64,000 nucleotides of DNA from Actinernus sp. WN-2022 (Eukaryota; Cnidaria; Anthozoa; Actiniaria; Actinernidae): positions 154,434,344-154,498,343 of the forward strand of contig JAOWCC010000577.1 in assembly GCA_030867875.1 (NCBI GenBank), given 5' to 3'. The position numbers and the translations under genes are program-made. This document shows positions 9,501-63,194 of the stretch, piece after piece (positions within the stretch are counted from its first letter, which is position 1; every line of letters begins with the position of its first letter). A model generated the notes under the pieces. The model was not told the DNA's origin. It saw only the letters and a list, made by a program, of their open reading frames with translations, and did not search any database.

Positions 9501-12500
9501 AAACCGAACTGGCTACATATATATTCTAAAGTGGTACTGTCACAGTCCTTTCCATGGAGATCTTTGAACAAAAATAGCTGGTTTTATTGAAATTTCCGTA
9601 TCTGAGAACCAATTGATAATGTTACCAACATTTTGCATTGTATTTGACAGCGAGCGAAGTTTGTTTTGAATTGCACGCTTCATTTCAATCAAACCAAATC
9701 AAAATTGTCAGGCTGTCACACGTCGACTCCTATTGGTCAATTAAGAATGGGTTACAAGTAATGGGGTCATGTGCGTGGTGGGCGAATATTCAGAATCCAT
9801 GCGTTTTCGGGCAGGCGGTCTTTCCTTTCTGCTTCTTCTCCCCCACCCCCTCCATTTGTCATTCGATCCCAAGTCTCAATCACGCTCGGCCAATATGGCG
9901 GCCGCTTCGATGATCCGTTCAGCTGCGCGAAAAAACACCATCTACCGCCTGAAAGCAGGCTAAGATTTCAATAACCTGACTGTCCTTCTCGTTATTGAGA
10001 CCATTCCTTTGTATTAACATTTGGTCGGGTTTATCGACGCACTTCAGATAACCAAGGTCTATAGCTAGTAATAATAATACTCTTTATTTGCACCACTATT
10101 TAGAATTTTACAAAGCTAAAAGAAAAATTATCTTATAAATTACCATATACATACATTACAAAGGAAAGACAATGAAAGAGAGTGCAGGGGAGCCGGAGTA
10201 ACCTAGGTTTTCGAAGCCAACTCCCCTAGTTCTTTACAGGTCATTTTTTTAGTTAAACATATTTACAATATTGTTTTCCCCAAAAGCACTAGGCTTAGGG
10301 AAGAGGTCAAAACAATGGTACTCTGGCGGGACCCAATTTTGATGGAAGGGGGGTTGTACCCGGAACCCACCACCTATTTTGGCAAAATCTAGATTTTTGA
10401 CCACAAATATCTTCTTGAATAAAATACTTATTGAAAAGTAACTACATTTCTAGTTTCTACAGGCAGAGAAGAACGTGTGTCTGCATTAAAATCACGTATC
10501 CCTAGTTACAACGCGAAAAGATCACCCTCGAAAAAAGGGGTAGGGGGTATTACCCGCCACCCACCACCTCCCCTGACAAAATTGGGTCCCATTCGAAATC
10601 CATTGTTTTTACAACAATATACATTTTATTTTATTTTATACAGGCACACGCAAACAAAGAAAAAAAATATCAATAAGCAAACTAACCGAAAACAAAATAT
10701 AACAAAAGGAGCTGGAGTTCACCGAGAAACGATCAGTATTAATAATAACATTTTGAACTTCACGAAAAAAAGAACAATTCACATCATAATCAGTCCAGAC
10801 TTTACACCATACAAAATAAACAATAATTTATTTTTGTCGCTACTCGCTGACCACGTCTGTCCTAAGATATTAGCAGCAGAGGTAAGGAAAACATTACGCT
10901 GAGCGGCATACCGAGGACAGTGGAGGAAAAAGTGCTTAACTGTTTCTTTTTAAAGACCGCACTCACACAAAGGGGAAGCACAACAATTTATTTTAAATAA
11001 ATAACCCATTAAACTGACAAACCCAAGCCTAAGGCGAGTCTTGACGCGAGTCTTGAAATTGAAAATTCAAATAACTTATTATAAGTACGTGGTAATAAAG
11101 AGGATCGGATTTTTGCTTTAAAAGTAGGTAAATATATAGAGTTCCGGACTTCTATAAACATTAGTGTTTGTACACTATTTAGTGCTACCCTCTTAAAATA
11201 AAGGTATTATTATTATATTATTATTATTATAACGAATTCCAATAAAGTATATATAGAAGAGGGGAAAAATGACTGAAGAAATCTGGAAGTTCTGCATGAA
11301 AATTGAGTGAAATTTTCACTTGATCTAAGAGGGATATGAGTACGGTCACTAGAAATTTTAGGCAGAAGTTCGACTAAATAGTTAGGAGCAATATTTTTGG
11401 CAATTTTATAAAATTTTACCATCTTATGCATCTCTCTCCTAGTTCTAAGATCTTCCCAGGCTAGCTCCTCATGTAAACTAGCAGAACTGATCCCCTTAAT
11501 AGCTCTCGTTACCGCCCTCAGTTTCGGCTTCATATTGAATACTGTCTAACAAAACCGATTCACATTCATTACAATTGTCCCAGATAATATCCCCATATTC
11601 CATAAGCGGTCTAATTACAAGCATACTAAAGTAGACCTATCAACCTTAAATTTTAAAAATTTCAACAAATTTAATCGTTTGGATGCTTTTTCATGCATTA
11701 CTCCATGACATATTACACTGCAAGATAAGCCCAAGGTGAGTATGAGATTCTACTTCCTTTACAATCTTAGAATCAAGATAAATAGAGGATGATCAACCTT
11801 TTCTTTCTTAAGTAATTTACCTCTTGGCTCAAGTTCACTGCCGTTGAATGGCGCCGCCCTGGTGAAAATCTCCTGGACGATGATAGCAAAGCTATACACA
11901 TCTCCCTTTTGGCTCATTCCTTCTCGCTCCATTTTATCCATGTTGATGTGTTCCGGGGCACACCACAGCAGATCTGACAGAAACAATAATTTAAAAAGTT
12001 AGTTTTTAGGAAACTTGTTTAAAGGTTTCAAGAAAAATCCCACTGGAAAATGATTACTCAAGATACCTTCCACGGGAAATTATTTCAGTGATTGATAACG
12101 TTACAACACATTAACCTTTGTAGCCCATCAGATGTTTCTCTACTGCGTAATTGGTGGAATAGCGTCACGTGACGCAAGGTCGCGTGGCGACAACGGCCGA
12201 ATTGATTTCTTATTCAACACAACTGGTTTGGCTCATACCTCTCGGATCGGTTCCAGTATGTCGTAATTAACAACGAACGCTCAAATCGGTTCGACTTGGA
12301 ATTTGGCGTCCCTTATGGTTCTTGTTTGGGCCCACTCTTGTTCTCTATTTATAGTAGTCAGCTGTTTGACATTGTTAGCCATCATTTACCAGAGGTTCAT
12401 TCGTACGCTGATGATACCTAGCTCTACTTAGCGTTTAAACCGGCTGATGATACATCTCAAGCCGCTGCTCTCGCTGCCATGGAAGCTTGCAAAGAAGATC

Positions 12501-21500: not shown

Positions 21501-23650
21501 GGTTTGTCATGTTGTTCTCGGCTTTCAATAGATGGACTAACGACTCATAATTGCGCATTATTGTGCTTTCTTTGTGCTGGAGGTGTGGTTGTTTTTCCTT
21601 GGTATGCATGACGTACGGATACGGGGAGAAAAAGCACAGAATTGAGCCGCCACACAATCTAGCTTTATCAGCGGAGAATCGGCTATTTTTCGACCTTCAA
21701 AACGTATTTCCACTTTTTAGACGTGCACCACAAAGAAATAAAATAGCAGAACTCTTTTCTTTCGAATACATCTTTGTATAGATGTTGGGTTGATTTTAGG
21801 GTTCAGTCCCCTTTCAGAGCCATAATTTATACATGAATAAACTTTAAACAATACCGCTCCACAATGGGAATGTTGTACACGTTTCAATTTCCCTCACGAA
21901 TATTCTTTAAGATTTTACCTTCTCGGACTTTTTTAGGCTGATGTAGAAAGGTGGATCTTGCATTCGTCTGCGAACTTCCTTTTTGAACTCGAGCCATCTC
22001 TCCGTCGTGGGTTCCCGTACGTGAATACTAAGGATCCCACGAAACGCGAGGGTTGCATCCTGGTCCCGTCCATCGTTTCCCATCCACGTGTTGTTGCCGA
22101 TGGCGGCAGAGGGCAGAAGGTTAACGGTAAGAAAGGCGTAGTCTCCATTCAGCATGCCGAGATCATAAGCATGTAGCATAAGCGCACGAATGTCACCTCC
22201 GTAGCACAGCAGAATCAGAACTAAGTGATCAAAAGGATGACATGACACTTATGATCAGTATATTATAGGAAAATCACAGTCTACATGACTCCATCATTCT
22301 ACTAAAATTCGCACGATTTGAGAAAACGACTTCTCGGACGATATCAGTGTTTTTCGAGTGCAATTCAATTTACCGAGATAGACTACATAACGTTCGGCTT
22401 TTATAGCTTAGTTTAGCTTTTATAGTTATTCTATGCCACCCAGTACCGTATCTAAGTCCAGCAAGGGTTTGAAGATATCAAAGTTTAAGGGAGAACTACT
22501 TTTTTTTGAATAATATTAATTAGTACTCCACCATTATTAGAAACTTAGTTTAGGACGCATTATTATAGATCGGACTAAACTGTTTGTGAATGCGAAGTCA
22601 CAATTAATAAATGTGACGTCATTAGGTACCATGGCAACTACCAAGACCAAAATGGTCCTTTTGAAAATCGTTGAAACTCTAATTCGATTCAGCCGAACTG
22701 GTGTGGCGATTTCCTTTAAAATTTATTACAAAGTCGAGCCATTGGAAGTTTCAAAACGCATAAATAAAAATTCAAATCAGTAAAGTGCACAGTTTTCGTG
22801 CCACAAAAATAATACAAAGCAATAGACTCGGCTTAAATGTAAATGGCTTGGGAAAGAAAAGGAGCGAACTGAAAAAAGTTCATACTTGATCGAAATTCTA
22901 AACAACAGTACAGTAACATGTAATGTAAATGTAAGATACATTAGACTTTTATAGGAAAATCAAGTACTTACTCCTTGCGTTTTGCTTGGCGATTTCCAGC
23001 AAGCTGCGATACTCCTTTCGTTCGGTCACCAGTTGACTTCCAGGGCTGAGGGTCTGAAGATATCTTACATTAATTGAATGCGTCGCGACGAACGTTTTTC
23101 TCAAGTTGGTCATCGCCAACTGCCACATGTTCTCCGTGGATGCAATAATTCCTATGTCATCCCACTTGAAATACTTAAAAATTGATAAAAACAAGTCCCC
23201 CATTTTTGAAAACGACTGCACTGTTCGTACAAACGTAGGATATACTCTTTTCTCTGACAAGGCGCTCGATTCACATCCCCAAGAAATAATGGGGAGGTTC
23301 CACGACGCAGCCAGAAGGCTGGCCGGCTCGCAGATTATATCACAACCGTCGCCAATAATAGCATCCACATTGGCCAGCTTGAATTCTACGGCTTGGTTAA
23401 GGCCCTCGGCTGCTAGACACTGCGAGTCCTTCCACAAGAAAGTCATGTTGTAGCCGTTAAGGAGTGATTTGTCTTCATTAATCCTCTTGACGGCGATGGT
23501 GATGGCGGACGCGGACGTTTTACCGATTGGCCAGTACCCCGTCATGGGGAGGAGGACTCCTATCTTAACCTCCTGCTCCTGCTCGACTGGACTGGTGGTC
23601 TGAACACTGGACCAAATAACAAGACAAACTGCTATGAGAGAGAGAGACAT
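4369..23650 (-). CDS. Receptor guanylate cyclase (natriuretic-peptide-receptor type), 3' end outside window
   Basis: Single-pass membrane enzyme expected to convert GTP to cGMP when its extracellular domain is engaged. I joined 17 exons, phases consistent throughout: 23650-22972, 22220-21919, 20188-20053, 19623-19492, 19188-19090, 17999-17918, 16780-16645, 16135-16058, 15781-15677, 14858-14787, 14272-14107, 11973-11821, 7003-6836 (this one extends to 6826), 6595-6455, 5843-5720, 5621-5553, 4543-4369. They give about 942 residues: signal peptide (1-20), ANF-receptor ligand domain, one transmembrane helix (about 453-476), kinase-homology domain (about 523-773), coiled-coil linker ending LLPPSVAEQLK, and the cyclase domain up to RIGIHTG. 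The family is usually 1,000-1,200 residues, so roughly the last 100 or more are off the left edge. The start ATG at 23648-23650 precedes a clear signal peptide. The ligand cannot be told from sequence. Confidence 0.93.
4521..4761. repeat. Direct duplication of the last visible cyclase exon's splice acceptor
   Basis: A segment starting tacgcatcacc (4521) recurs at 4653 with a period of 132 bp, and the second copy runs to about 4761. The duplicated piece contains the first codons of the exon (VETIGDAY), its AG acceptor and about 90 bp of intron. The upstream copy is thus a decoy acceptor followed by a short open exon start. Differences between copies are few, so the duplication looks recent. 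Confidence 0.85.
6826..16780 (-). CDS. Cyclase exons 7-13: juxtamembrane and kinase-homology domain
   Basis: Seven exons: 16780-16645, 16135-16058, 15781-15677, 14858-14787, 14272-14107, 11973-11821 and 7003-6826. The domain keeps the VAIK-type lysine (VVIKRLNK, Lys about 529). It has [12 protein letters not shown] where active kinases have HRD...N, and DWG in place of DFG, so the catalytic aspartate of HRD is missing. This is the usual pseudokinase state in receptor cyclases, where the domain regulates the cyclase rather than phosphorylating. The last exon ends TACAG|GCAAGT, a GC donor. Introns here hold a 44-bp satellite, a MULE-like element and LINE relics. Confidence 0.92.
7327..7862. repeat. 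44-bp tandem repeat (about 12 copies) in a cyclase intron
   Basis: The unit reads roughly TTAAAGGTCAAAGTGCATAT then GGGCCCTAGCCAGTTATCAT and so on, repeating every 44 bp with few changes (GGGCCC/GAGCCC/GGGCCG variants). The first copy begins TTAAAGTGCATTTGGG. It closely matches the right-hand terminus of the TTAA-flanked element at 37469-37914, read outward to inward, including CCTAGCCAGTTATC and TTTGAT. I infer that the array grew from a transposon end. Confidence 0.85.
8195..9962. mobile_element. MULE-like TIR element with 9-bp target duplication
   Basis: The left end (TAGCCTGCTTTCAGGCGGTA) and right end (its reverse complement, closing at 9962) match for about 100 bp. They are flanked by AGATTTCAG on the left (8186-8194) and AGATTTCAA on the right (9963-9971), a 9-bp duplication with one mismatch. 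A 9-bp duplication with long TIRs fits the Mutator (MULE) superfamily. No transposase is evident inside. Internal inverted copies (about 8640-8770 against 8825-8960) carry GTTTTCAAAG and cggagcaggaggaagctata. It sits in the intron between cyclase exons 12 and 13. Confidence 0.7.
10068..11770 (-). pseudogene. LINE (L2/CR1-like) reverse transcriptase C-terminal relic
   Basis: On the minus strand, pieces in shifting frames read [15 protein letters not shown] (near 11,730), [17 protein letters not shown] (near 11,600), [20 protein letters not shown] (near 11,430), then [18 protein letters not shown] and [17 protein letters not shown] (near 10,900). These are the late reverse-transcriptase and C-terminal zinc-binding parts of a non-LTR retrotransposon. 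Frames change several times, and a small ATT-rich insertion interrupts it at about 11,160-11,230. A palindromic insert (about 10,325-10,600, arms gggacccaattttg) lies nearer the 3' end. It ends within about 50 bp of cyclase exon 12. Confidence 0.65.
12205..13410 (+). pseudogene. L2-type LINE fragment, 5'-truncated and mutated
   Basis: Plus-strand frames encode [16 protein letters not shown] and SYADDT (the catalytic YADD motif), followed immediately by a stop codon at about 12,420. Then come [20 protein letters not shown], a frameshift near 12,615, and a 177-codon open stretch (12681-13214) with [26 protein letters not shown] and [16 protein letters not shown]. This is the classic L2/CR1 end. 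The 3' tail GTAAGGCGCATTTGAAAACGC ... GCGCGGTATAA followed by ATTAA repeats also fits L2. It lies in the cyclase intron between exons 11 and 12. Confidence 0.8.
13690..13765. repeat. Short palindrome
   Basis: Arms ccccaagctgggtgt and acacccagcttgggg face each other within 76 bp, with a third partial copy (ccccaaactgggtgt) between them. It could form a hairpin in DNA or RNA. No terminator or gene is attached to it. Confidence 0.6.
14925..15120 (+). mobile_element. Degenerate SINE copy
   Basis: Text beginning near gtggtcagcggtgtggctct, with a damaged box B (ggttcgatcatcagccgg), is followed by gagaaggtgctgccttta and cgaaacacctcaaa. It shares this body with the SINE copies at 47,345 and 51,950 (gtagaaggtgctgcctttgt). 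It lacks a clean box A and is probably an old copy in a cyclase intron. Confidence 0.5.
16870..17366 (+). pseudogene. LINE 3'-end fragment (same family as 63,419-64,000)
   Basis: Plus-strand pieces read [16 protein letters not shown] and, in another frame, [15 protein letters not shown] followed by [19 protein letters not shown]. This is the terminal part of an L2/CR1-group reverse transcriptase. A simple repeat tail (GTAT)n closes it at about 17,350-17,366. The same protein order appears on the minus strand at 63,605-64,000. Frameshifts show it is dead. Confidence 0.65.
17560..17765 (-). mobile_element. Harbinger-family MITE
   Basis: This short stretch is dense in ATCCATTTTTGGATT-type repeats. 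Its right edge (aaactgaaacacacccta) is the complement of the left edge of the Harbinger element at 1008. It has no coding capacity and sits in the intron before the transmembrane exon's downstream neighbour. Boundaries are approximate. Confidence 0.5.
17918..17999 (-). CDS. Cyclase exon 6: transmembrane helix
   Basis: This 82-bp exon encodes [20 protein letters not shown] followed by FFFIV, a single hydrophobic span. It joins the previous exon to make EKEAAKVV, and it splits the following arginine codon (AG|A) so that the cytoplasmic side begins RKLRYETDL. Both splice sites are canonical: CTTGCAG acceptor and CAG|GTTTGT donor. Confidence 0.92.
18670..18780 (-). repeat. tRNA-derived fossil (Ser/Leu-like) or SINE head
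   Basis: Minus-strand reading gives ATGGCCGAGCGGAAAGAGCG, which resembles the box A region of class II tRNAs. GGTTTCGATCTCCGG, a degraded box B, follows about 50 bases later. The acceptor arms do not pair and box B is mutated, so I do not call a functional tRNA gene. It may be the head of a SINE. Confidence 0.4.
19090..22220 (-). CDS. Cyclase exons 2-5: rest of the extracellular domain
   Basis: Exons 22220-21919, 20188-20053, 19623-19492 and 19188-19090. Together they complete the type I periplasmic-binding fold. The first gives [20 protein letters not shown], the second [20 protein letters not shown], the third [19 protein letters not shown], and the fourth the juxtamembrane [19 protein letters not shown]. 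These match the conserved order in receptor guanylate cyclases, including the cysteine just outside the membrane. The exon at 19090-19188 is only 99 bp but is fixed by an in-frame TATGTAG acceptor and an AAG|GTTAAA donor. Confidence 0.9.
21329..21817. repeat. TIR-bounded MITE in a cyclase intron
   Basis: Left end AAAGGAGAACTGAAGCCTAA plus AATCAAC and right end GTTGATTTTAGGGTTCAGTC plus CCCTTT are imperfect inverted repeats. The interior holds further self-complementary text (cggctcaattc and gaattgagccg). Short ORFs inside have no domain. It lies between cyclase exons 2 and 3. Confidence 0.6.
22972..23650 (-). CDS. Cyclase exon 1: signal peptide and first lobe of ligand-binding domain
   Basis: Translation begins with a hydrophobic leader ([15 protein letters not shown]) and continues with [18 protein letters not shown], the usual opening of ANF_receptor/periplasmic-binding-like domains. 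[20 protein letters not shown] and [10 protein letters not shown] follow, with cysteines placed as in natriuretic peptide receptors. The donor is AAGGA|GTAAGT and leaves one base in phase. The upstream promoter and any 5' untranslated exon were not identified. Confidence 0.92.
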
Positions 23651-24116
23651 TTGGCGCTCATCATGTTACTTTGGCCTACGGACTAAAAAAAAATCTAACG
23701 GCGGTACTCTTTTTCGCCCAATTAAAGGAAACTCGCTTGGCAATGAAGTCAAGTGACTCCAAATTCTTCTAGACGTCAGTTCTTTGTGGACTGACCGCTT
23801 TTATGAGAAAGTTTTCGTTCACTCAAAAGAATTTTAGGGAAAAAATATAGATGACAGCGAAAAGGGTTTTTGAAACATACAGTTCTCGCGACAGGAAAAT
23901 TAATATGAAGTGACACTGCGCTGTGTGCACGTATATAATAGCAACATATGCCCATATTTGGTGCAATAGATGTCGGCCGCAATGCTTTGTCGGTCTTTAT
24001 GCCTGACAGGTATACCAGGCCCTAGAAAATAAGCTCGTGTAGAACAGACCGGCGTAAACTGGGCTATAGACTTTAATATGCGCTGTAGTCGGAGGGGGGT
24101 TACTCCTTATAATGGA
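23651..24116. other. Region upstream of the cyclase start
   Basis: This should contain the promoter and 5' untranslated sequence of the minus-strand cyclase. I see no clear TATA box at a convincing spacing and no upstream coding exon. Confidence 0.35.
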
Positions 24117-26517: not shown

Positions 26518-26940
26518 TCTTGTGCCTCTGATTGGCTTCAGTCCCGTTTATAGAGTCAGAGAGCGTCTTGTGCCTGTGATTGGTTTCAGGCCTATATTTA
26601 CAGAGAGCGTCTTGTGCCTCTGATTGGCTTCAGGCCTGTTTATAGAGAGCGTCTTGTGCCTCTGATTGGCTTCAGGCCTGTTTATAGAGAGCGTCTTGTG
26701 CCTCTGATTGGCTTCAGGCCTGTTTATAGAGAGCGTCTTGTGCCTCTCATTGGCTTCAGGCCTGTCATAGAGAGCGTCTTGTGCCTCTGATTGGCTTCAG
26801 GCCTGTTTATAGAGAGCGTCTTGTGCCTCTGATTGGCTTCAGGCCTGTTTCAGTAGAGAGCGTCTTGTGCCTCTGATTGGCTTCAGGCCTGTTTCAGTAG
26901 AGAGCGTCGCTTGACTGTGCCTCTGGTAGGCTTCAGGCCA
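26518..26940. repeat. 42-bp tandem repeat (about 10 copies)
   Basis: The unit is GAGAGCGTCTTGTGCCTCTG then ATTGGCTTCAGGCCTGTTTATA. Most copies are 42 bp; a few lose or gain a few bases (tgtcatagagag, tgtttcagtagag). The unit includes CTGATTGGCT, a CCAAT box on the opposite strand. I would not infer promoter activity from that alone. Confidence 0.9.
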
Positions 26941-33894: not shown

Positions 33895-36069
33895 TTACCA
33901 GGTTGGCTTTAGGTTACCGTTCGGCTTTTTTATGAAGTTTTTCTCCTTTCCTGTCGGGTTAATAATAGCTTGAGTTCCATCAGTGGCGTACGTCCTATTC
34001 GCCACAGTAAACGAGTTATTTGTCGTTACGTCAATGGCCACATTATTTGCTACCACGTGGGCAGTGGTATCCAGCGTCGGGGCTCCTCCAGCCGCTTTGA
34101 AAACCGAGAAATCAAAGGTACAATTAGTAACCCTCCTGTACCAGCCAGTTGGAGTAAAGGCAGACTGCCCGTGGGACTTAGTAGCCTTATAGTAGACATT
34201 ATCCAGTTCGATCATACCTTGGAACTCTTGTCCACCTTCGTACATATCCAGACCGTCTAATGCATCTGAGTTTAGAAGCCGGAATACGGATCTCTTGCTA
34301 CCGTGCACGTGACCATAGCATCGCTCAAAATGCGTCGAGATGAAGCAGTTGTTTAACGTTGCTTCAAAACTAAGCTTGTCGAAGCCCGCACCACTCTTTC
34401 CGATTGTCAAGATAAGCGGCTTTGAAGCGCGGATATTTTGCAGGTTGAACTTCACTGCTAGCATGGTATCGAAGTTGTAAGGCACGGAATCGAAATCAAA
34501 ATGAAGGTAGCCCCCCACATCTTCGTACGATATATTGGAGATGTTAATCTCCCGTGGAAAGACTAATTTCTGGTGGAGTTGGTAGCAGTAGTTATTTCTG
34601 GGTGAAGCAATAAGGTACACATCCCCGCCATGGTTGATGCTAATATTTTCAAGGGTGATCTTTCTGGGAAGGTGGTAGGTACCTGGCTGCGATATCTTCA
34701 CCCCGTCCGATTCGCTGATTGCGCTTTCATTCAGGGAAACTAGAACGATTGCGGTACGCGGCTGTACGGTCTTGCGGGTATTGATAACGCAATCTCTAAA
34801 TATGATTTCTCCTTTAAGTTCACCGTAGTCCGATCGCAGGCTGATGCACGAGCTGGTGCGTTGGACGAATGTGCAGTTGTTCACTATGAAGGACGCATCG
34901 TGCGCTCCGGTTGCAAAACTCACGTTACGTCCAGATATCACACAGTTATCAAGCGTGACATCAGCAACATTAAAATGACCATGAAAAGAATCGATATAGC
35001 CGTCACGCACTGTAATGTCACGCGTATGATTGCCATCAATCGACTTCCATGATGTGTGACACTGAGGGTTCATCACTACGACCTTAACGCAATTCGAAAA
35101 TGTTAAGTCGTAACGCACGTTGTGCGTCACACCAATTTGGTTGTTGGTCACGCCGTGGCCACTTGTACTGAAGCCATTGATTCTTACGTCGAAGGCTTCT
35201 CTAACAGTCAGAATAGCTGAGAATGGGGGAGAGGTGAAGCTCGCATTGCCCTGCATTGCAACAAAGCTGTGAATATCTGTCATATCCCTGTTGATGAATA
35301 GTGCCCCTCTTGATGGTATTCTTACAAGCTCGAATCTTGGGCACTTGAAATCTAGCCTTGAGTCTGGTAGCTTGCGAAGGTAAAGCTGAACATTAGTTGC
35401 TTTGGTAAAATCATGGGTTAGAGTGTAACCAAGGCGACCGTATTTACCCATAACTCCTAGAGAGCGCTTGGGCTCGGGCGTCCACGTTCCCGCGTTATTT
35501 CGCCAGACAGAAGTCGAGTTGGAACTCAGTTTGTAAAAGCTGTTCTCAAACCGTTGTAGCACTGTAGAGTCGTTGAAGATAAACTCTGCTGCCAGATCCA
35601 CCAATGTTGTCTGGTCTAAGTCACTGCTGTTGAAGGACTGAGAAACGGCCCGAGCTGTTCTTTCGTCCGCGATTTTGATTCCCCCTCCGTCGCAAACGAA
35701 TGTCGCACTCGAGAAATCCGTATTTGTATAAACGGTAATATCGCTAGTGATTTTAAATCTTCCACTTCCTACAAGCATTTTTCCCGTCTGTCTCGCGTGG
35801 TCTGCGGCGGTTTGGATAGCCGCGGACGAGTCGTTTTGCCCCGTAGGGTCGATTCCCGGATACTCAAGGATGTTGATAACATCGGCGGTTCGTAGCGCGA
35901 GTTCATCTAAGGCTGACTGAGTGTCGGTAGCTCGAAGCTTACTTGTTGTGTTGTTGTAGTTGATAGTGCTAGCTGCCGTGTTTGTACGGCTGTCAGGATT
36001 AACTGATGAACTGCAACAGCTTGAGTCGTCACTGTCTGCTGAATAGCTTCTTTGTTTTAACCCCGCCAT
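33895..36069 (-). CDS. Phage-tailspike/pectate-lyase-like beta-helix protein, intronless
   Basis: A single uninterrupted 724-codon frame, the longest in the window. Residues 47-61 (ATDTQSALDELALRT) match the connector seen at the start of phage tail fibre and tailspike proteins (ATNVQxALDEL type). Residues 71-92 (PGIDPTGQNDSSAAIQTAAD) match the entry motif of pectate-lyase-3-type tailspikes (G-GDG-TDDT-AIQ-A). The rest is rich in short beta-strand rungs with N, G and V (DITVRDGYIDSF, VTLDNCVISGRNVSF), as in right-handed parallel beta-helices. No signal peptide or membrane segment is visible. By eye the ORF is richer in G+C than its flanks. Substrate and catalytic residues cannot be named. The neighbours are animal genes, so I infer horizontal acquisition from a phage, bacterium or large virus. 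Expression is unknown. Confidence 0.75.
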   Translation of the reverse strand: MAGLKQRSYSADSDDSSCCSSSVNPDSRTNTAASTINYNNTTSKLRATDTQSALDELALRTADVINILEYPGIDPTGQNDSSAAIQTAADHARQTGKMLVGSGRFKITSDITVYTNTDFSSATFVCDGGGIKIADERTARAVSQSFNSSDLDQTTLVDLAAEFIFNDSTVLQRFENSFYKLSSNSTSVWRNNAGTWTPEPKRSLGVMGKYGRLGYTLTHDFTKATNVQLYLRKLPDSRLDFKCPRFELVRIPSRGALFINRDMTDIHSFVAMQGNASFTSPPFSAILTVREAFDVRINGFSTSGHGVTNNQIGVTHNVRYDLTFSNCVKVVVMNPQCHTSWKSIDGNHTRDITVRDGYIDSFHGHFNVADVTLDNCVISGRNVSFATGAHDASFIVNNCTFVQRTSSCISLRSDYGELKGEIIFRDCVINTRKTVQPRTAIVLVSLNESAISESDGVKISQPGTYHLPRKITLENISINHGGDVYLIASPRNNYCYQLHQKLVFPREINISNISYEDVGGYLHFDFDSVPYNFDTMLAVKFNLQNIRASKPLILTIGKSGAGFDKLSFEATLNNCFISTHFERCYGHVHGSKRSVFRLLNSDALDGLDMYEGGQEFQGMIELDNVYYKATKSHGQSAFTPTGWYRRVTNCTFDFSVFKAAGGAPTLDTTAHVVANNVAIDVTTNNSFTVANRTYATDGTQAIINPTGKEKNFIKKPNGNLKPTW

Positions 36070-37468
36070 TAATTGATCCGAGTTAGCGGCTGAAGTGCAG
36101 TCAGTACCACCACAGAATCTCTACTTTTATCAAGCCGACTAGAAGGCCAACACTGACCCTTGAGGAGATTGATTACTGAAACTGAATTTTAATTTGTAAA
36201 GGTCAGCTTTTTACTCGTCTTCTTTTGTTATCATCAGTGAATTTACCCCATCTGTGTAAAGAAATAAAATGTGCCATAATTTAAGCAAATTACCAACATA
36301 AAACGTTTGAAACAAAGCTACATTTAGGTACTTATATTGCCACATGGAACTCCGAGCCATATTTTACATCCTGGTTAGGATGTGGTAACCGCCTTTGAAA
36401 GCAAGGTGTAGCTGAAAGTTTTCCGTTTCGAGTGCTGGCCCTTCTTCATACTAATAAACCACTCGGAAGCAAGGCACGCGGTGTTTACGGGATTTGTTTT
36501 GTCGATGAGATTGAACTCTCCCTTCAGGTAAATAGTCTTAAATTACTTGACCAGAAATTGGCGGTATTTTTGTGGACAATAATGGATGTTACGTTATGTT
36601 AGGAAATCACTACGATGATATCAATATTATTATAAGAGAATTGCAGAGTTCCGTTGTGGGTTCGATTCTGTTCATTTCTATACATATATAAAGTCAGCGA
36701 AATACAAATTGATAAAGTCAAACCTGGGAACTGCAAATCCACCAAAGCAGCAGAACGATGGTGTACGTGTACCACCTGCAGATATTCATTTCCCCAACTC
36801 CCACATGAAACCCCACGATGTTTTTATTGGTACACCTCATCTAAAGGCAGACGTCTACAAAACTGCGATTTTAATAACATTTTACTCATTTCGGTCGTTT
36901 ATTGACGCAAGCTTATTACTGTTTACGCATATGGGCCTCGTACAAATTTGAATTTCTGGAGTGGATTTTTGAATGTATTATATTCGATGATATATGAAAT
37001 GCCATTTTCTCCTTACAGTTTTACTAGGGACAGTACAGTGGATTTAATTTCAATCAATGTGAGAATATCTTTGCTGGTCGGTACGGCGCCTTATATTAAG
37101 GAAGCTTTATTGAAACCGCATTACGGCGAGTCATAACAGTCAATTATTCATAACAAAAAGGCTAAGTGAATATCTGCTTCACAGCGATTGCGAGACAAGA
37201 CTTTTTCTTTTACTGAAAAGATATTGAAATCTTATGCGGTGGCTGTAATTATGCAGTTTTTCGATGTTCCCAAAGCTAGACAGCGAAAACAATTAGATGA
37301 TACCTGCTTCAAGTGTTTTATTTGGACTTGTTTGACTAATTTGTTCATCTCATTCAAATCTACCAACTGAAGAGACTAAACATTCAAAAACGGCTGCATA
37401 AACAACCAACTGAACCGGTTTTCATAAAATATAACTGAGAACGGGAATCAACTTTAGAGAGTTCTTAA
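36070..37468. other. Upstream flank of the tailspike-like gene
   Basis: No second exon or neighbouring viral or bacterial gene is visible. The short ORFs look random. If the tailspike-like gene is transcribed, its promoter should lie here. Confidence 0.4.
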
Positions 37469-37914
37469 AGTGCATATAAGCCTTTGATATCGATTGTACA
37501 TGAAGTGGATAGTCCAACGGTAGAATATTTCTTGATTTGGATGTTGCGTCTATGAGATATAAAGGTTTATATTTTCAATATGCTAATGATGTGATGTCAT
37601 CACCGACATTTGCTGAATTTCTTTGTGCTTGTAAATTAAGCTATTTTCTAATTTAGATTTTTTTTTTGTAAAATCACTTTGATAAGCTTCAAATATAACT
37701 TAGAATTTAAAAAATAGGTAATTTGTCTCCACCAGCATGCTTTTGTATAATAAGTGATGTCGGTGATGACATCACATCATTAGCATATTGGAAATATAAA
37801 CCTTTATATCTCGTAGACGCAACACCCAAATCAAGAAATATTCTACCGTTGGACTATTCACTTCATGTACAATCGATATCAAAGATAACTGGCTAGGGCT
37901 TATATGCATGCACT
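37469..37914. mobile_element. TTAA-target foldback MITE
   Basis: Inverted arms of about 150 bp begin AGTGCATATAAGCC (left) and end GGGCTTATATGCATGCACT (right), with TTAA on both sides (37465-37468 and 37915-37918). The right arm contains the complement of CCTAGCCAGTTATC, shared with the 44-bp satellite at 7327. A degraded half copy lies at about 63,195-63,335. No coding capacity. Confidence 0.8.
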
Positions 37915-39918: not shown

Positions 39919-40920
39919 GGCATTACCAGGAGCGTACCTATGTCATGGGTAGCGCCCACAGCACAGTAGACGATGTGGCTATTTATAGTATATATCACCA
40001 GGAGCCCATTACCAGGAGTGTACCTATGTGATGGGTAGCGCCCACGGCACAGTAGACAATGTGGCTATTTATAGTATATATCACCAGGAGCCCATTACCA
40101 GGAGCGTACCTATGTGATGGGTAGCGCCCACAGCACAGTAGACGATGTGGCTATTTATAGTATAGATCACCAGGAGCCCATTACCAGGAGCGTACCTATG
40201 TGATGGGTAGCGCCCACAGCACAGTAGACGATGTGGCTATTTATAGTATAGATCACCAGGAGCCCATTACCAGGAGCGTACCTATGTGATGGGTAGCGCC
40301 CACAGCACAGTAGACGATGTGGCTATTTATAGTATATATCACCAGGAGCCCATTACCAGGAGTGTACCTATGTGATGGGTAGCGCCCACGGCACAGTAGA
40401 CAATGTGGCTATTTATAGTATATATCACCAGGAGCCCATTACCAGGAGCGTACCTATGTGATGGGTAGCGCCCACAGCACAGTAGACGATGTGGCTATTT
40501 ATAGTATAGATCACCAGGAGCCCATTACCAGGAGCGTACCTATGTGATGGGTAGCGCCCACAGCACAGTAGACGATGTGGCTATTTATAGTATATATCAC
40601 CAGGAGCCCATTACCAGGAGCGTACCTATGTGATGGGTAGCGCCCACAGCACAGTAGACGATGTGGCTATTTATAGTATATATCACCAGGAGCCCTTTAC
40701 CAGGAGCGTACCTATGTGATGGGTAGCGCCCACAACACAGTAGACGATGTGGCTATTTATAGTATAGATCACCAGGAGCCCATTACCAGGAGCGTACCTA
40801 TGTGATGGGTAGCGCCCACAGCACAGTAGACGCTGTGGCTATTTATAGTATATATCACCAGGAGCGTACCTATGTGATGGGTAGCGCCCACAGCACAGTA
40901 GACGATGTGGCTATCTATAG
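39919..40920. repeat. 86-bp satellite (about 12 copies) with higher-order pattern
   Basis: The unit runs cattaccaggagcgtaccta ... atcaccaggagcc every 86 bp. A variant with gtgtacc, cggcacag and acaatg together occurs in the second (from 40,007) and sixth (from 40,351) copies, four units apart. Copies with tatagatc rather than tatatatc also alternate. The last copies are shortened. ORFs across the array are by-products of its periodicity. Confidence 0.92.
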
Positions 40921-44200: not shown

Positions 44201-46609
44201 GAAGCAGAAACATAAGCTTCTACTGAAAATGAACACGATGGAAGCATAAGCACAAGCCTCGTTCAGATGCGCAAACCTCGCTTGCATGCTATATTTACAC
44301 TGCTGAGGGCGTGAGAATGAGCATTCTGATTGGCTAAATTCTTCGATTCTGCTGCTTCTTACATTTAAAGTGCCAATAACCCCCCAAAAAATATTTTTGA
44401 CGTCTATTCTGTATAGCGCCCTGACAAAGAATTCGAAAAAATAAAAGTGAAAAAACTAAACTTCGACGATTTTACTGGTGTCAAAGTTAGCGAAAACACC
44501 CGTTTTGGGCTTCCTGTTTCCAGTTGGAAGTCAGCGCGAGTCGTGGTGAGGGCCTGGAATTATGACGTCAATCGGGCGCATTTTACTACAACTACCAGAA
44601 TCCTTTGCACGGTTTCTTTTGTTCCTTTAATTTAGACTATTGTCTTGATATTCTCAAAGGAGTTGGAAAATCTGAATAAGGAAAAACGTCCTATTATAGT
44701 CTAATCAATAGGAAATAAACTCCATCACAAGAAAGAGCACAACGAAATTAGTAAATTTACCAAGTTTGGTGATATTTCATTGGATATTTATCATGTGGTG
44801 AGCTTGCAAGAGTCGCAGAAATAAGAGACGTTTGTATGGGATTGAACGAACGCCTGACTACATACACGTCACAGGCCACTGGTCTCCAGGCTCCCAAAGG
44901 GAATTGAAAACTGACGGCCACATGTTCTGGTTCTCAACTTTGAAACGCCGTAAAAAAAATACTGTTGAGTTTTAGCCTCCTATTTTTGCCTTAAGTTCTA
45001 AATAATGGTTTAAAGTTTCAATTCAAAAAAAATTTTTTTTTGGGTTATAGGCACTTTAACTAGGTCTCACTGGAACGGAAGCAACGGAAGCTCGACGGAA
45101 ACAGAAGCAGAAACATAAGAAGGAAACCTCCCGTTCCTTCTGCTTCTGCTTACATTTAACTAGTTTTCACTGGGACGTAAGCGAAGGAAGCAAAAGCAGA
45201 TCGAAACATAAGAAGGAAACCTCCCGTTCCTTCTGCTTCTGCTTACATTTAACTAGTTTTCACTGGGACGTAAGCGAAGGAAGCAAAAGCAGATCGAAAC
45301 ATAAGAAGGAAACCTCCCGTTCCTTCTGCTTCTGCTTACATTTAACTAGTTTTCACTGGGACGTAAGCGAAGGAAGCAAAAGCAGATCGAAACATAAGAA
45401 GGAAACCTCCCGTTCCTTCTGCGTATGCTTCTCTCGAGCTCTACGTTGAGCTTGCTTGTGCTTACGTCTCCGTTTCTTCATTTTCACTAGAACGTAAGGC
45501 TCCTTATGCTTCCGCTTCTGTCGCTAGTGAAAAGCAGGCTTAATGAGCATGTGAGCAGTGATATAAACAAAATATATGTTAGGCGTTACTTTGAAAGCTT
45601 GCAAAAACAATAAATGTTTTTGAGGCAAATTATATTCTGCTAAAATATTTTAAGATGTGCCTGTTCATTAACAGTGCCATTTTCTTTTGTCGCCCCTCAC
45701 CTGTATTTGAACAGCACTATTTTTTACCAGGTCTGAGATGTCTTGAGCATTGGTCCTAGCGTAGGAGTGGAAACATGTTTTCAATTTAACTGAATCACCA
45801 GACATTACCACTCCGCGAAGGAATCGTACATCGTATATCTTGTGGACGCGTATAAATGATTTCTCGAACAGGTCTCTTCTGCTACCCAGGCCCAGTGAGT
45901 CAAGGAGGGCTCCGTGTACACGACCGCTCGCCAAATCCTTGTAAATCTCGTCGTAGCTTTCGTATTCATTCTCTGCAAGAAGAATGAACATGAGGGGAAA
46001 AAGTGAGAAGGGAGCATATTCTAACATTATCAAACCATCATGGTTGGCTCAGCTTTACTGAGTCAAACAGGATAAATTTGAATTGTCAAGTACTTATACT
46101 TGGCGAAGTTTTATTAAATGTTCAATGTGTTATATAATGTTTGTTACCTAGCTTTATAAATGTATCGGTTAGTACTCCTTGAGGGTTTGGTAAGCCACCC
46201 CCCATGACCTTGTGTCATGAACGTGAGGCCACAAGCACTTACAGTACAGGCAAGCTGCTATAGATGCCATTGCGTTCGTCAACTTCCGTGAAAGCCATTA
46301 GCAAGTGCTATTCGTAATTTTGTTTTTGGAAAATGTGCTCATTAAGAAATTCAAGGACTTTTGAAGACTGTACAAACCATGTTGATTTTCTCTGAATGTA
46401 AACGTTAATGACGACGATTTCAATACGGACCAAAACAGTTTGGGTCAATGAAGTACGAAGGATATCCGAGAGAAGGTACATCGTGACAGCAATCCTATTT
46501 TGATGTCATATTTCCTGGATTAGAAAATGAGGTAACACTTACCGACATTAACTTTGGCATTTCTTCTGATGCCAAAACGGTATTCGTAGGAACCTTTTAT
46601 AGCAGAAAC
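41233..46609 (-). CDS. Channel exons 4-7: lobe 2, TM3, C-terminal tail
   Basis: Exons 46609-46543 (VSAIKGSYEYRFGIRRNAKV), 45972-45701 (YESYDEIYKDLASGRVHGAL, then LDSLGLGSRRD), 43693-43519 (TM3, LIYTSAMLGCAFVFGLAWDL) and 41444-41233. Repeated YxxYxxIYxDL-type text is typical of the second lobe of solute-binding domains. The tail is charged (MIKRLRKKHRVEKQKF) and may form a helix. Phases are 0, 1, 0 and 1, and the total length is a multiple of three. Confidence 0.85.
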
Positions 46610-52600: not shown

Positions 52601-53260
52601 GTAAACGCAATGACCTGATTACATTTCGACACTATCGAATACCGGTCTAAAGTATTTTCATTTTCAATCATTTTCCCTTTCAACCTGACTAAATCATTTA
52701 AAGTCTTAATTATTTACCAAAAACCAAATGACGCATCCAGTAACGTAAGCAAATAGAAGCGAAACTAAGGCGAGCGGCCAGTTATCGATCGTCGACGAGA
52801 AGACAGAATAACTTGTTTCCGCGTCTTTATTGTTCAGTGTGAGCAAAAACGCTACGCCAGGTGTCTGGACGATTCCAGTGTACGCATGAACTGTCTTGTA
52901 TTTTTCTTGCATCGCGAAACCAGCGACAGGGAAAATCAGATTGGTGTCACCATCGATACTAGCTCGCAACGTCGTCCCCTGTGCCTTCTCTGAGGTCCTG
53001 TTCTTGCCGCTGAGGCGAAAATCCACGTAGGACTTGCCATGGCGTTTACACGTCCGACAGCAGGTCTTCACCATGCCTTTGAGGATGTAGGGAATAATAC
53101 CGGTGGGCTCGATGACATTGGAAATGACGTATGGAGGAAAATGCATCCAGTTGGTAGAAAGGCGCTTCTCACAACGACAAGTTTCTAGAATAAAAAATAT
53201 GAATATTGCGATGAAAGGAATGCGAAATATTGCGTCCGTGAAATGTGGAATGAGAGACAA
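41233..53260 (-). CDS. Ionotropic glutamate-receptor-like channel with K+ selectivity filter (TTVGYGD), complete
   Basis: Seven exons join in frame to 506 codons: 53260-52718, 51894-51800, 47743-47587, 46609-46543, 45972-45701, 43693-43519, 41444-41233 (stop TAA). Order: signal peptide (about 1-30), first binding lobe (PPYVISN... to about 150), TM1 (161-181), re-entrant pore loop FWWAYVSMTTVGYGDRSP (202-219), TM2 (about 222-254), second lobe (about 266-395), TM3 (404-426) and a charged C-terminal tail. Lobe-membrane-pore-membrane-lobe-membrane is the ionotropic glutamate receptor layout without the N-terminal clamshell, as in bacterial GluR0. The filter is that of potassium channels, not of animal AMPA/NMDA receptors. 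Lobe 2 has ALLDS, where many receptors have the amino-group-binding Asp/Glu. The usual lobe-1 arginine is not obvious. A plasma-membrane potassium channel gated by a small ligand is inferred. Confidence 0.85.
41504..41630. repeat. Hairpin repeat in a channel intron
   Basis: acaactaccagaatc and gattctggtagttgt face each other about 100 bp apart. The same left arm recurs at about 44,588 inside the TTAA element. Confidence 0.55.
42234..42904. mobile_element. MULE-like TIR element, third copy
   Basis: Ends TAGCCTGCTCATAAATTC and ...AGCAGGCTA, flanked by ATTAGTTTT (42225-42233) and ATTTGTTTT (42905-42913), a 9-bp duplication with one mismatch. Internal inverted repeats (gaagaaaaaagtaacgtctg against its complement near 42,550) and a second pair (gaggccggtagg / cctaccggcctc) point to nested foldbacks. 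No transposase inside. It lies in the intron between channel exons 6 and 7. Confidence 0.65.
44179..45542. mobile_element. TIR element with internal 93-bp tandem repeats and a nested insertion
   Basis: Terminal repeats AACCTGGTTTTCACTAGCGA (left) and the matching right end GTCGCTAGTGAAAAGCAGG are about 40 bp long. From about 45,060 to 45,470 the interior repeats a 93-bp unit (copies start at 45,127, 45,220, 45,313 and 45,406). The units contain versions of the terminal sequence (tagttttcactgggacgtaa, gaagcaaaagcagatcgaaa). A TTAA element is nested at 44,369-45,055. Confidence 0.75.
44369..45055. mobile_element. TTAA-target element nested in the 44,179-45,542 element
   Basis: Starts AGTGCCAATAACCCCCC, ends GGGTTATAGGCACT, with TTAA on both sides (44365-44368, 45056-45059). 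The flanks read ...cttacatTTAA and TTAACTAG..., which together rebuild the sequence cttacatttaactag found in the neighbouring 93-bp repeats. The insertion site is therefore visible. The internal stretch gtttcattggatatt-like text near 44,770 recurs at about 57,200. Confidence 0.85.
46850..47262. repeat. Possible MITE with GGGCGCGTTCCATT palindrome
   Basis: ggcgcgttccatt (46,855) and aatggaacgcg (46,895) are inverted copies. A weak outer pair, ctaagggcgc on the left and gcgccctaa near 47,255, may bound the element. A transposon origin is only a guess. It lies in the intron between channel exons 3 and 4. Confidence 0.35.
47345..47586 (+). mobile_element. tRNA-derived SINE
   Basis: Box A-like tcagtggttaagctccggtc and a perfect box B-like GGTTCAAACCCCGGCC, followed by the shared body gagtaaggtgctgcctttgt-type text. 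It ends with a (CTTA)n tail at about 47,565-47,585 that runs up to the donor of channel exon 3. Confidence 0.7.
47587..47743 (-). CDS. Channel exon 3: rest of the filter and TM2
   Basis: Begins YGDRSPSSILSRLVAIVWTL, continues into a long hydrophobic helix (SGVVVIGLLVGSISTSLSSI) and ends SLYGLK in phase 0. YGDRSP completes the filter. An intron of roughly 4 kb, holding the 17-bp satellite and an L2 relic, separates it from exon 2. Confidence 0.88.
47786..48366. mobile_element. TIR element containing about 90-bp tandem repeats
   Basis: Ends aatagtccaattcgtaattc and its complement gaactacgaattggactatt, with inner ggcaaccaagcctt / aaggcttggttacc. Between them, five copies of a roughly 90-bp unit (gttagcatgataatcaaaat ... 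gtgcagggtcaactccatcc) run from about 47,875 to 48,320. No ORF. Confidence 0.75.
48440..49135 (-). pseudogene. L2-type LINE fragment
   Basis: Minus-strand frame NNICKSAFYHLRNIAR, ATLIHVFVTSKLDC, LFGFPEDQLGKLQNVINAAA and LIQLHYQRITYKIILL is the L2 reverse-transcriptase C-terminus. The tail near 48,480-48,520 (TGTAAAGCGC ... GTGCTATATAAGC then ATT repeats) is the L2 tail also seen on the SINE at 3446. It is 5'-truncated and frameshifted. Confidence 0.7.
49272..49291. repeat. Poly-G run
   Basis: An almost unbroken run of about 20 G. Likely length-variable and a hotspot for sequencing error. Confidence 0.8.
49465..51060. repeat. Longer repeat copies around the 17-bp satellite
   Basis: Text near acgcgagtcggtaacactcc ... 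ttcggcaaagt appears at about 49,469, 50,695 and 50,959. A linked piece (ccgccattttatcttctcat / ccgccattttagatcttaat) is at about 49,563 and 50,907. This is a diverged repeat of about 264 bp into which the satellite expanded. Confidence 0.6.
49857..50650. repeat. 17-bp satellite, about 46 copies, highly homogeneous
   Basis: The unit is GAACTGATCTAATTACC, repeated with almost no variation. Two adjacent copies have GAACAGATCT (about 50,054-50,088). Near-identity over about 800 bp suggests recent expansion. It lies in the channel intron between exons 2 and 3. Confidence 0.95.
51335..51405. repeat. G-rich low-complexity tract
   Basis: Runs of four or more G separated by short spacers (gggggggggggggggg, then ggggggcgagg and ggggggaagggggg), with a duplicated gcgaaatcgct. 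It could form G-quadruplexes on the plus strand. No gene link is shown. Confidence 0.6.
51800..51894 (-). CDS. Channel exon 2: pore helix and start of the filter
   Basis: This 95-bp exon reads DSSGNEEQFPRSF then ITGSMEGFWWAYVSMTTVG. The acceptor is TTTGTCAG|GAT and the donor TAGG|GTAAGA. The final glycine codon is split (GG|C), so the intron falls exactly inside the TVG|YGD filter. GFWWA...TTVG is the pore helix and filter signature of potassium channels. Confidence 0.88.
51950..52370 (+). mobile_element. SINE interrupted by a MITE
   Basis: A tRNA-like head (cgcctcccgcttagctcaatgc, 51,949) and the body gagtagaaggtgatgtcttt place it in the same SINE family as 47,345. The body stops at about 52,080 and resumes at about 52,310 (ggacgttcagtcgtaggtcc). 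Confidence 0.6.
52080..52303. repeat. MITE nested in the SINE
   Basis: The left part (ggatggaccacaagaaatca, then aggtggagggagtggcaatt) and the right part (aattgccaccccctctcctg, then atttataatagtccacccc) are inverted copies. This is a small TIR element inserted in the SINE body. Confidence 0.6.
52718..53260 (-). CDS. Channel exon 1: signal peptide, lobe 1, TM1
   Basis: The ATG at 53260 opens a frame with a hydrophobic leader (IPFIAIFIFFILETCRC). It continues with the amino-acid-binding lobe (WMHFPPYVISN, GIIPYILKGMVKTCC, GVAFLLTLNN) and ends in the first membrane span (WPLALVSLLFAYVTGCVIWFL). The donor TTTTTG|GTAAAT is in phase 0. Three cysteines in KTCCRTCK may be special to this protein. 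Confidence 0.85.
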
Positions 53261-54116
53261 ACCGCGATATGTAACGAAACTTCAAGGTAGAATACAAACT
53301 AGTGGAAGATAGAGCTGATAGAGCAGATTTCGTATGAGTAGGACAAACATACGGCATATCCGTAGCCTTACCGTATCCCACACCGCGGCAACACAGCGGT
53401 CAAACGTCTGCGCGTGCGTATTACGGTCAGTCTCGTGGGCGGCTGCGCGAATTTCCCCGCGCAAAATTTACCTTAAAACATATTACAGCAACCCGGCGTT
53501 TAAAAAAAAAACTCGGCTTGTGAACTTCTACCCTAAAAAGTTAAGACATACGAGAAAGTTAAGATTTTTATTTTCACAGTCACAAACTTCAAACTAATTT
53601 TTTTCATAATTTAACAAAAAAGTTCTCAAGGTTTGAAAACGGGTGTGTGAACAATGACGGCCGCCGGCTCGCTTTGAATTTGTTTTGGAATATGTTGTTG
53701 TTGCAAGACTTTTGACGCATGCGCAGACGTTTCACCGCTGTGTGCACCGCGGCAAAACGGTATGCTCCGCTGGCCGAAAGAACGAAGGCTCTGCTATCAA
53801 ATACAAATTACCGAGGGCTTTTTTAGTAAATAATTTTATAACTTAGTTAAAGTCTTAGGCTTATCTTTTAAGAAGTTTTTTTGACAAAACAGTTCACAAA
53901 TGGATACTTTTAAGCATTTTATTTTCAGTTTTCGCGGGAAACTGGGGTCGGCCGCGCGCCGACAAGAAATAGCAAATACGCATGTGCTTGACGTTTTGCC
54001 GCGGTGTGACCGTAGCCATACTGTAACTGACTGCACCGTAACTCTGTAATTTGATTGGATCAGAAGGACAAAAACAATAGAAAAAACCATTTCAATGTCA
54101 CGGATGTCGTACGGTT
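53261..54116. other. Upstream region of the channel gene
   Basis: No exon found. The promoter of the minus-strand channel gene should lie here. CpG-containing text (cgccgtgttgccgc-like) is seen at 53,380-53,460 and near 53,740. No TATA box at a persuasive position. Confidence 0.35.
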
Positions 54117-59134: not shown

Positions 59135-59228
59135 ATGACGAGGTTTATTCGTTAATTGGATGAACTTTACAAACTCACGTCCAGTCCTTTTTTCAATTTG
59201 TTGTAGGCGAATTAACATAATGACTTAC

Positions 59229-59526
59229 TGTTTTCATCAGTCTTCACAATTTGCCTGAATGTTGGGCCGTCTCCCTTTATAGTGAAGGCTCTTATAGTGA
59301 TCATAAAATCCGTGTAACTAGGCAGGTTCTCTATCTTGTAAAAAAAGGTATCGGGGAACAAGGTCTTGGTCTCAGTCGCGTTCATACTACTGGTGCTCTT
59401 GTGTGATAACCTGTATCCTAGGATAATGCCATTCTCGTAGCCAAATGGAACCTGGGTCCCACACAACGCCGATTGATGTCGGAGATGGTAATGAGAATGT
59501 CACTTGATCAGGAGGACGATCAGGAA
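59229..59526 (-). pseudogene. FN3 exon 2 with a one-base frame break
   Basis: One frame reads VPDRPPDQVTFSLPSPTSIG then VVW. Then a GGG run (59,458-59,460) is followed in another frame by QVPFGYENGIILGYRLSHKS and SYTDFMITIRAFTIKGDGP. Together these are one FN3 domain. The exon is 298 bp; 297 would be phase-symmetrical, as in its neighbour, so one extra base explains the break. Confidence 0.7.
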
Positions 59527-59959
59527 CTGAAAAAAAAGATATATTAGATTGATCAAGCCGGTTATTGTGGCTAATACTATGGGCGAGTTGTTTCTGTGAA
59601 AAAAAAAATAGTGTAGCGTCAGCGGGGCAGTTTGACACTAATTTTATCAAATGAGAGTGCTGCAGCTGGCATTTCGAGCGCTGGCATTTAATTCTTCCGG
59701 GTGAAAAAACCCGCAATAGTCGGAAGCCTGTGAATTTTTCTATCAGCATTAGACGCCTGCAAATTATTTGAATTTTTCATGACCTTTTGTCTCTATTCCT
59801 TGGATGATCTTTTTATTGCCAATTTAGAATATTTTTGGTAGTTGTAATCATGAGTAAAACAATTGCTTTCCGGGCTATTAAAGTCTTTGTGGTTTCTATA
59901 TAAAACCAGCCAGACAAAACCAAGGCGGCTTAAAATATGTCATGGAAACGTGAATGGAC

Positions 59960-60250
59960 CCGAGGTAAGGAGTATCGAGATCACATTACGGAGAAGAGGA
60001 AACCGTCGGTAGTTAGTAATACATAGGAGAGATCACTGTCCGATTCCTTCCAGATGATCTACTTAAACCATCACGATTTACTAGAAGTCAACATACTCAG
60101 TCTTTCATCCAAATGGCTACTGGCCCTACTGGTTATTGTATGAACAGTTTCTTCCCAAGAACTGTAAGTGATTGGAATGCACTTCCACCAACTGTATATG
60201 TAGATAATTTTAAGATTTCAGTTTTCCAACATTTTAGTACACGCAATTAG
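59960..60250 (+). pseudogene. LINE 3'-end fragment
   Basis: One plus-strand frame gives SQHTQSFIQMATGPTGYCMN and SFFPRTVSDWNALPPTVYVD, typical of the last part of L2/CR1-like reverse transcriptases (FFPRTVxDWNxLP). Frame changes upstream. An AT-rich simple-repeat tract follows (60,260-60,425). Confidence 0.6.
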
Positions 60251-60889
60251 TCAATAAGTAATAAGTTAAATTATTTATCTATATATTTACTTATTTATAC
60301 ATTATTTATTTATTTATTTACATATTTATTCATTCATCTACTCAGTCAGTCATTCATTCACCTATTCATTTTTTTTTACATAATTATTTATTTGCTTATT
60401 TATTATTATTATTATTACTATTATTTTGCTCTAAACGTTTACATATTTTAAGTTAACATAATTATTTTATATATTTTGTATATATTTTTTAATCTGCGTG
60501 ATGCTTATGGCTTTGCAGATCATAAATGTAGATGTAGTGATGACACCCTAATCTATACATGCGAATTGTGTCTGTGGACGAGAGGGGTAACGAGTAGCAT
60601 ATCGCTGTGCATCGTAATTATAATGTGTATGAAGGGGAACTTGTTTCTTGTCAAAAGACAACAAATACTTAAAACCTTAGTCGATGGTCCACTGCTGTTA
60701 TTTATTCAATTAAAGGGGAACTATATCAATCGAATTGAACCTGCATCAACTTTCTTTAAAACAAAACTACAAAAATAACACCGTGAGAGATAAGAGAAAA
60801 ACCATGTGAATGTCTTGATATGATTTTTAAACTTTTCGATAAAGGCAAAGATTATAATTATTGACTTTGTAATATATATATAAATTTCC

Positions 60890-63105: not shown

Positions 63106-63194
63106 CTAATAAAGACAATACGCAAAAGCTCGCTCCGTTATTTCCCTTTATAATATAAACTACGGGAACATCTTAAGAACGCGCGATTTCATTG

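Follow-up and report, generated by a model that had tools for sequence, protein, structure and literature searches.

A phage tailspike homologue resident in the nuclear genome of the sea anemone Actinernus sp.

How does a gene resembling a tail protein of bacterial viruses come to reside in the DNA of a sea anemone that probably lives in deep water, and does the animal use it? The question is raised by a 64,000-nucleotide stretch of Actinernus sp. WN-2022 (the window), which lies on a scaffold of 190,193,871 bp in a genome of 1.39 Gb and carries, on its minus strand, a 724-codon open reading frame (ORF) homologous to phage tailspikes. A tailspike is the viral protein with which a phage attaches to the polysaccharide coat of a bacterium and, in many cases, cuts it. 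Tailspikes with the beta-helix fold attach to O-antigen or capsule, which they often cleave, and a free tailspike can do this in the absence of a virion. We consider it likely that the ORF is a horizontally acquired tailspike gene of Vibrio or enterobacterial phages, resident in the nuclear genome of this hexacoral, where it is probably functional and encodes a protein that binds and probably cleaves glycans.

An intact intronless frame

The ORF runs from ATG to TAA in a single frame. The second-longest ORF listed for the window encodes 233 amino acids (aa), and no ORF exceeded 183 codons when the window was simulated 40 times under a first-order Markov model. An earlier sequence-only reading of the window, made without database searches, had described an uninterrupted 724-codon gene lacking introns, and the frame is indeed unbroken and well beyond the simulated maximum. 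The parts of the gene are listed below, with expect values (E) where matches were obtained.

33895–36069, minus strand: intronless ORF including the stop codon, 724 aa, phage tailspike homologue from homology and fold prediction
35971–36069, minus strand: aa 1–33, serine-rich N-terminus of low prediction confidence, in which no anchor domain of phage type was recognised
35887–35970, minus strand: aa 34–61, phage-type linker STINYNNTTSKLRATDTQSALDELALRT ahead of the beta-helix, from weak matches (E 0.03 and 0.6) and motif likeness by eye
34249–35886, minus strand: about aa 62–607, predicted right-handed beta-helix body, with limits from fold alignments and homology
35020–35037, minus strand: aa 345–350, with D345, N347 and R350 invariant in 12 phage relatives
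34975–34977, minus strand: H365, invariant in the same 12 relatives
34810–34836, minus strand: aa 412–420, RSDYGELKG, with R412, D414 and G420 invariant and E417 present in 11 of 12
33898–34248, minus strand: about aa 608–724, C-terminal part, its end compared with phage relatives
33643–33648, minus strand: AATAAA, candidate polyadenylation signal about 250 bp beyond the stop codon, identical in both copies of the gene, from sequence only

The sequence-only reading had also described a tail-fibre-like connector. The linker does resemble EQVGYSNTGSGLEATNVQGAIDELAGRG and SEIIYDNGTSGLMAVQVQYAIDELALNF from two uncultured phage records, but at the weak E-values given above. In base composition, the 2-kb step at 34001–36000 has a guanine-plus-cytosine (GC) content of 47.5%, and steps clear of the ORF have 35–44%. 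The GC content at third codon positions is 0.51 in the ORF, 0.58 and 0.53 in two exon-like host stretches (the second belonging to an unverified gene), and 0.34–0.39 in three phage relatives.

Homology to phage tailspikes

A tblastn search of 50,697 phage records (E up to 10) matched 61 records, five of which cover at least 80% of the query, with GenBank and RefSeq doubles counted; sequences were fetched for eight of the 61. The best matches are to Vibrio phage 1.067.O, in its tailspike (aa 35–724, 24% identity, E 2e-31), and to tail proteins of Escherichia phages vB_EcoM_ECO1230-10 (aa 105–683) and Paul and of Proteus phage PM16. When viral contigs were scanned with an alignment, 40 candidate stretches emerged, of which 6 were confirmed. 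The top two, L011 and L012, share 31–32% identity with the anemone protein over 716 and 666 columns, respectively (E 5e-104 and 4e-91, computed within a set of 15 sequences). In both contigs tail genes adjoin the tailspike gene: a baseplate-type protein of L011 is 95% identical to its counterpart in Vibrio cyclitrophicus phages, and a tail protein of L012 is 75% identical to its counterpart in a V. alginolyticus phage. Because of these two matches and the Vibrio phage likeness of their neighbours, Vibrio-phage tailspikes are the nearest to the anemone protein among the sequences found.

Homology extends across the body of the protein, over up to about 690 residues, to tailspikes or tail fibres of Vibrio (L011, L012, 1.067.O), Escherichia (vB_EcoM_ECO1230-10, Paul, P433.1) and Proteus (PM16) phages. 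The protein terminates in NGNLKPTW, a point from which L011 and L012 extend for about 42 further residues that have no counterpart in the anemone protein. Decay by C-terminal truncation was considered and rejected, since the enterobacterial relatives end at nearly the same place.

Other searches varied in yield. Scanning the viral contigs with alignment A3 returned 2 of 169 stretches and scanning them with a DNA pattern returned 2, in each case the L011 and L012 contigs; the ORF alone gave 10 stretches there, none confirmed, and pattern scans of genome contigs gave 5 and 21, again with none confirmed. One plasmid record matched (E 4e-8). The ORF had nothing significant in PHROGs. Homologous-protein searches with the ORF, A2 and A3 found no match and equally missed the real phage proteins contained in A2 and A3, so that they give no measure of rarity.

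The tree comprises 15 rows, drawn with midpoint rooting, in which the two anemone copies are the only animal rows; neither L014, which repeats the match of L013, nor L016 is included. The anemone pair and nine phage rows are set apart from the four other rows with support of 100/99. The protein search and phylogeny that the sequence-only reading had called for thus return phage tailspike homologues of near full length and a position among phage rows.

At the level of protein families, the ORF scores 16.6 bits against PF12708 (Pect-lyase_RHGA_epim), under the curated cut-off of 27. The virion-binding domains PF09008 and PF18668 are absent from its Pfam hits (E up to 1); one or the other lies above cut-off in three of eight phage relatives and is hence not universal in the set. 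Unlike the phage tailspikes, the anemone protein is encoded by an animal nuclear gene and has no recognised virion-binding N-terminal domain, and we therefore describe it as a tailspike-derived protein rather than a virion tailspike.

Within the phage set itself, the tailspike parts L011:3996-7067 and L012:4203-7064 are 57% identical over 792 aligned columns while the neighbouring tail genes differ, a pattern that resembles a swap of modules among phages.

Conserved residues and predicted fold

Conservation was counted over 12 phage rows; neither the plasmid protein of V. alginolyticus nor the anemone's second copy entered the count. The anemone protein keeps 12 of the 14 columns invariant in these rows: S183, R190, L213, Y320, D345, N347, R350, H365, G388, R412, D414 and G420. 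By the same yardstick, Vibrio phage 1.067.O retains 12/16, and L011 and L012 12/14, of the columns invariant in the remaining rows. Of the 36 columns common to 10 or more of the 12 phage rows, the anemone protein retains 32. The acidic and basic residues D345, R350, H365, R412 and D414, together with N347, are shared with the Vibrio, Escherichia and Proteus phage tailspikes named above.

The predicted model places a right-handed beta-helix in the body of the protein, in agreement with homology and with the beta-helix rungs suggested from the sequence; over aa 1–53 the predicted local distance difference test score is below 50. The model matched the tailspike K64-ORF41 of Klebsiella phage K64 (PDB: 8x8m) at 11% identity, and a common fold does not mean a common substrate. 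The absence of a family from the fold matches is no evidence against it. The anemone protein is probably a homotrimer.

Genomic residence and inverted duplication

A search of the anemone's own genome gave two matches to the ORF. The second copy, intact and 99% identical, lies some 850 kb away in reverse orientation (C1312:153619082-153621253). Both copies lie in a large inverted duplication, of which the window holds one side.

1–41579, continuing about 2.1 kb beyond the left window edge, no strand assigned: inverted duplication, window side; its partner, C1312:153614948-153649239, carries the second gene copy

The alignment is collinear and inverted and covers 44 kb on the window side and 34 kb on the partner side; past both block ends (94 and 110 kb compared), matches are confined to scattered short pieces. 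Around the window copy, 94 kb of sequence are free of N runs (three or more in a row), and at the locus of the second copy a single gap of 100 N lies some 46 kb from the gene. The gap-free sequence and the second copy with matching flanks form a strong argument against contamination or a chimeric join; the sequence-only reading had regarded contamination as unlikely if the assembly is right. According to the genome paper, the Actinernus sp. assembly, from the Haima cold seep, was built from HiFi reads and Omni-C and treated with purge_dups (PMC10598428).

The second copy may instead be a haplotypic duplicate remaining in the assembly, and the genome paper does report 129 self-syntenic blocks (PMC10598428). 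However, homology stops at either end of the block within the sequence compared, which favours a true inverted duplication. The gene is thus a nuclear resident between animal flanks, and the conclusion that a phage-type gene resides in the animal stands up well. The proposal that a phage gene has been fixed in an animal holds as regards phage origin and nuclear residence; its word "fixed" is supported only to the extent of two copies in one assembly.

The window copy of the block also contains about 455 bp (37457–37911) that are missing from the second locus. With inverted-repeat ends seen by eye, this segment looks like a non-autonomous DNA transposon inserted after the duplication.

Selection between the copies

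The two copies differ at 17 codons, nine synonymously and eight nonsynonymously, giving a ratio of nonsynonymous to synonymous rates (dN/dS) of 0.26. The deficit of nonsynonymous changes has a one-sided binomial p of 0.0065, or 0.014 with transitions weighted twofold. Across the ORF 17 of 2175 sites differ, with no indels, compared with 33 of 1968 in the immediate flanks (1.6% and 1.8%), where there are several gaps (Fisher p 0.0099). These results favour constraint after duplication, and purifying selection is supported statistically, on small numbers. Gene conversion could account for the lower divergence of the ORF, though not for the ratio of nonsynonymous to synonymous changes. The small number of differences suggests that the animal still keeps its tailspike gene intact.

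Origin, possible function and alternatives

We propose that the gene was acquired horizontally, either directly or by way of a bacterial prophage, and that its source lay among the tailspikes of Vibrio and enterobacterial phages. It would have retained the phage-like linker, the beta-helix body, the conserved acidic and basic residues and the C-terminal part, with no recognised virion-anchoring domain, and would later have been duplicated along with neighbouring sequence, in blocks of 34 and 44 kb. The most likely product would be a free, probably trimeric protein, perhaps secreted, that binds, and probably cleaves, a surface polysaccharide of Vibrio-like bacteria, benefiting the animal through control or digestion of bacteria. 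That the animal uses the gene is likely; the biochemical role is a reasoned guess, as is the part in polysaccharide breakdown, feeding or defence that the sequence-only reading had suggested. We tentatively suggest, at somewhat less than even confidence, that a virion-free phage tailspike acts as a bacterium-specific glycan-targeting effector of the animal, stripping or recognising Vibrio-type surface polysaccharide in immunity or digestion. If the protein is expressed and active, the animal would be deploying phage host-recognition machinery against bacteria, and a phage weapon would have been turned into animal immunity or digestion. The idea is directly testable, since tailspikes lend themselves to expression and to activity assays with bacterial polysaccharides of defined kind.

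Several observations weigh against this reading. The anemone pair joins L011 and L012 with weak support (61/58), and two rows of the tree lie on long branches. By sequence, the ORF has no significant match to a solved structure in the PDB, and the best stretches of profile A1 on PDB tailspikes are confined to the first 221 of 809 profile positions. Positions 340 and 463, invariant in the 12 phage rows, are altered in the anemone protein. Codon usage in the ORF does not consistently resemble either side (r 0.06 with the host stretches and −0.04 to 0.44 with four phage relatives), and the selection test is based on 17 codon differences. Finally, no signal peptide stands at the beginning of the ORF, and the one candidate for an upstream exon encoding it is weak.

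36724–36789, minus strand: possible weak signal-peptide exon MNICRWYTYTIVLLLWWICSSQ, whose ATG corresponds to CTG in the second copy

Hydrophobic ATG frames number six in the stretch of the first copy, two in that of the second, and two, four and one in three control stretches; among them, only 36724–36789 has a listed donor. With CTG in place of ATG in the second copy, we rejected it as an established signal-peptide exon. Delivery is therefore the weak link, and implies either a missed exon, intracellular action, or no use by the animal.

The alternative that survives best, although we regard it as unlikely, is that a gene of the same origin serves another use: within the cell, as a trimer that binds glycans but does not cleave them, or in a repurposed role. 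The lack of a recognised signal peptide would fit such a use, as would the animal transcription factor MYRF, described as employing a tailspike-related intramolecular chaperone domain (PMC3742443). MYRF, however, has the distantly related chaperone domain, whereas the anemone protein has the receptor-binding body; no chaperone or auto-cleavage family of the MYRF type is among the Pfam hits of the ORF (E up to 1). Retention of the entire body, and of invariant acidic and basic residues as in an enzyme, argues against this use. Our preferred reading and this one overlap, since phage origin is common to both.

Less probable still is a non-functional gene, that is, phage or prophage DNA duplicated passively and whose frame has not yet decayed. 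Such a gene could lack a recognisable secretion signal, follow neither host nor phage codon usage, and show amino acid changes at 8 of 17 differing codons, as observed here. The nonsynonymous deficit (p 0.007–0.014), a divergence about half that of the immediate flanks with zero indels against several, and the 12 of 14 retained invariant residues argue otherwise; nor was any other phage gene noticed, by eye, in the open frames of the window.

We give little credence to the idea that a eukaryotic DNA virus or a large mobile element first took the gene from a phage and then carried it into the animal. Beta-helix proteins can occur in large eukaryotic viruses, but inspection of the same open frames by eye noticed no viral hallmark gene, and the nearest relatives found lie in Vibrio phage-type contigs. 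Bacterial or phage contamination joined into an anemone scaffold, which an intronless ORF with strong phage homology might suggest, is largely refuted by the gap-free 94 kb, the inverted second copy with its matching flanks and the HiFi and Omni-C data of the presumed source assembly (PMC10598428), and is hardly tenable.

A phage gene in animal nuclear genomes has a parallel in cdtB, whose transfer from APSE phages to insect nuclear genomes has been reported (PMC8455502); cdtB is a phage-carried genotoxin and not a virion receptor-binding protein. In open-licence literature on tail genes of phages in animals or on the transfer of phage genes to them, no tailspike body in an animal genome was found among the matches listed, and the main text of the Actinernus sp. 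genome paper contains none of the words phage, bacteria, tailspike and lyase (PMC10598428).

Neighbouring sequence and other observations

The sequence-only reading had placed the gene between a receptor cyclase and a channel gene. On the former side, an exon of the host matches a receptor domain.

22949–23665, minus strand: ANF_receptor exon, host neighbour, E 6.5e-37

Together with a kinase-like exon at 11759–11998, it fits a putative receptor cyclase gene. The channel assignment fared less well: the exon at 52706–53281 has no Pfam match at E up to 0.001 and no significant PDB match.

Fibronectin type III exons lie on the minus strand at 59212–63172, with E 6.8e-10 for 62747–63172 and a match under the cut-off for 59212–59499. 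A tandem array with a unit of about 87 bp (CTATAAATAGCCACATCGTCTACTGTGCTGTGGGCGCTACCC) was seen by eye at about 39960–40860. Open frames made of short tandem repeats occur at 45060–45449 on the plus strand (HKKETSRSFCFCLHLTSFHWDVSEGSKSRSK) and at 26548–26796 on the minus strand (RPEANQRHKTLSIN).

Elsewhere in the assembly, a 35.7-kb contig (C144) contains the mitochondrial genome about twice over, with a cox1 period of 15,968 bp, and is probably the circular genome assembled as a concatemer. It uses code 4, its nad5 is split into two parts that enclose nad1 and nad3, and ARAGORN found two tRNAs in it; this is a hexacoral pattern.
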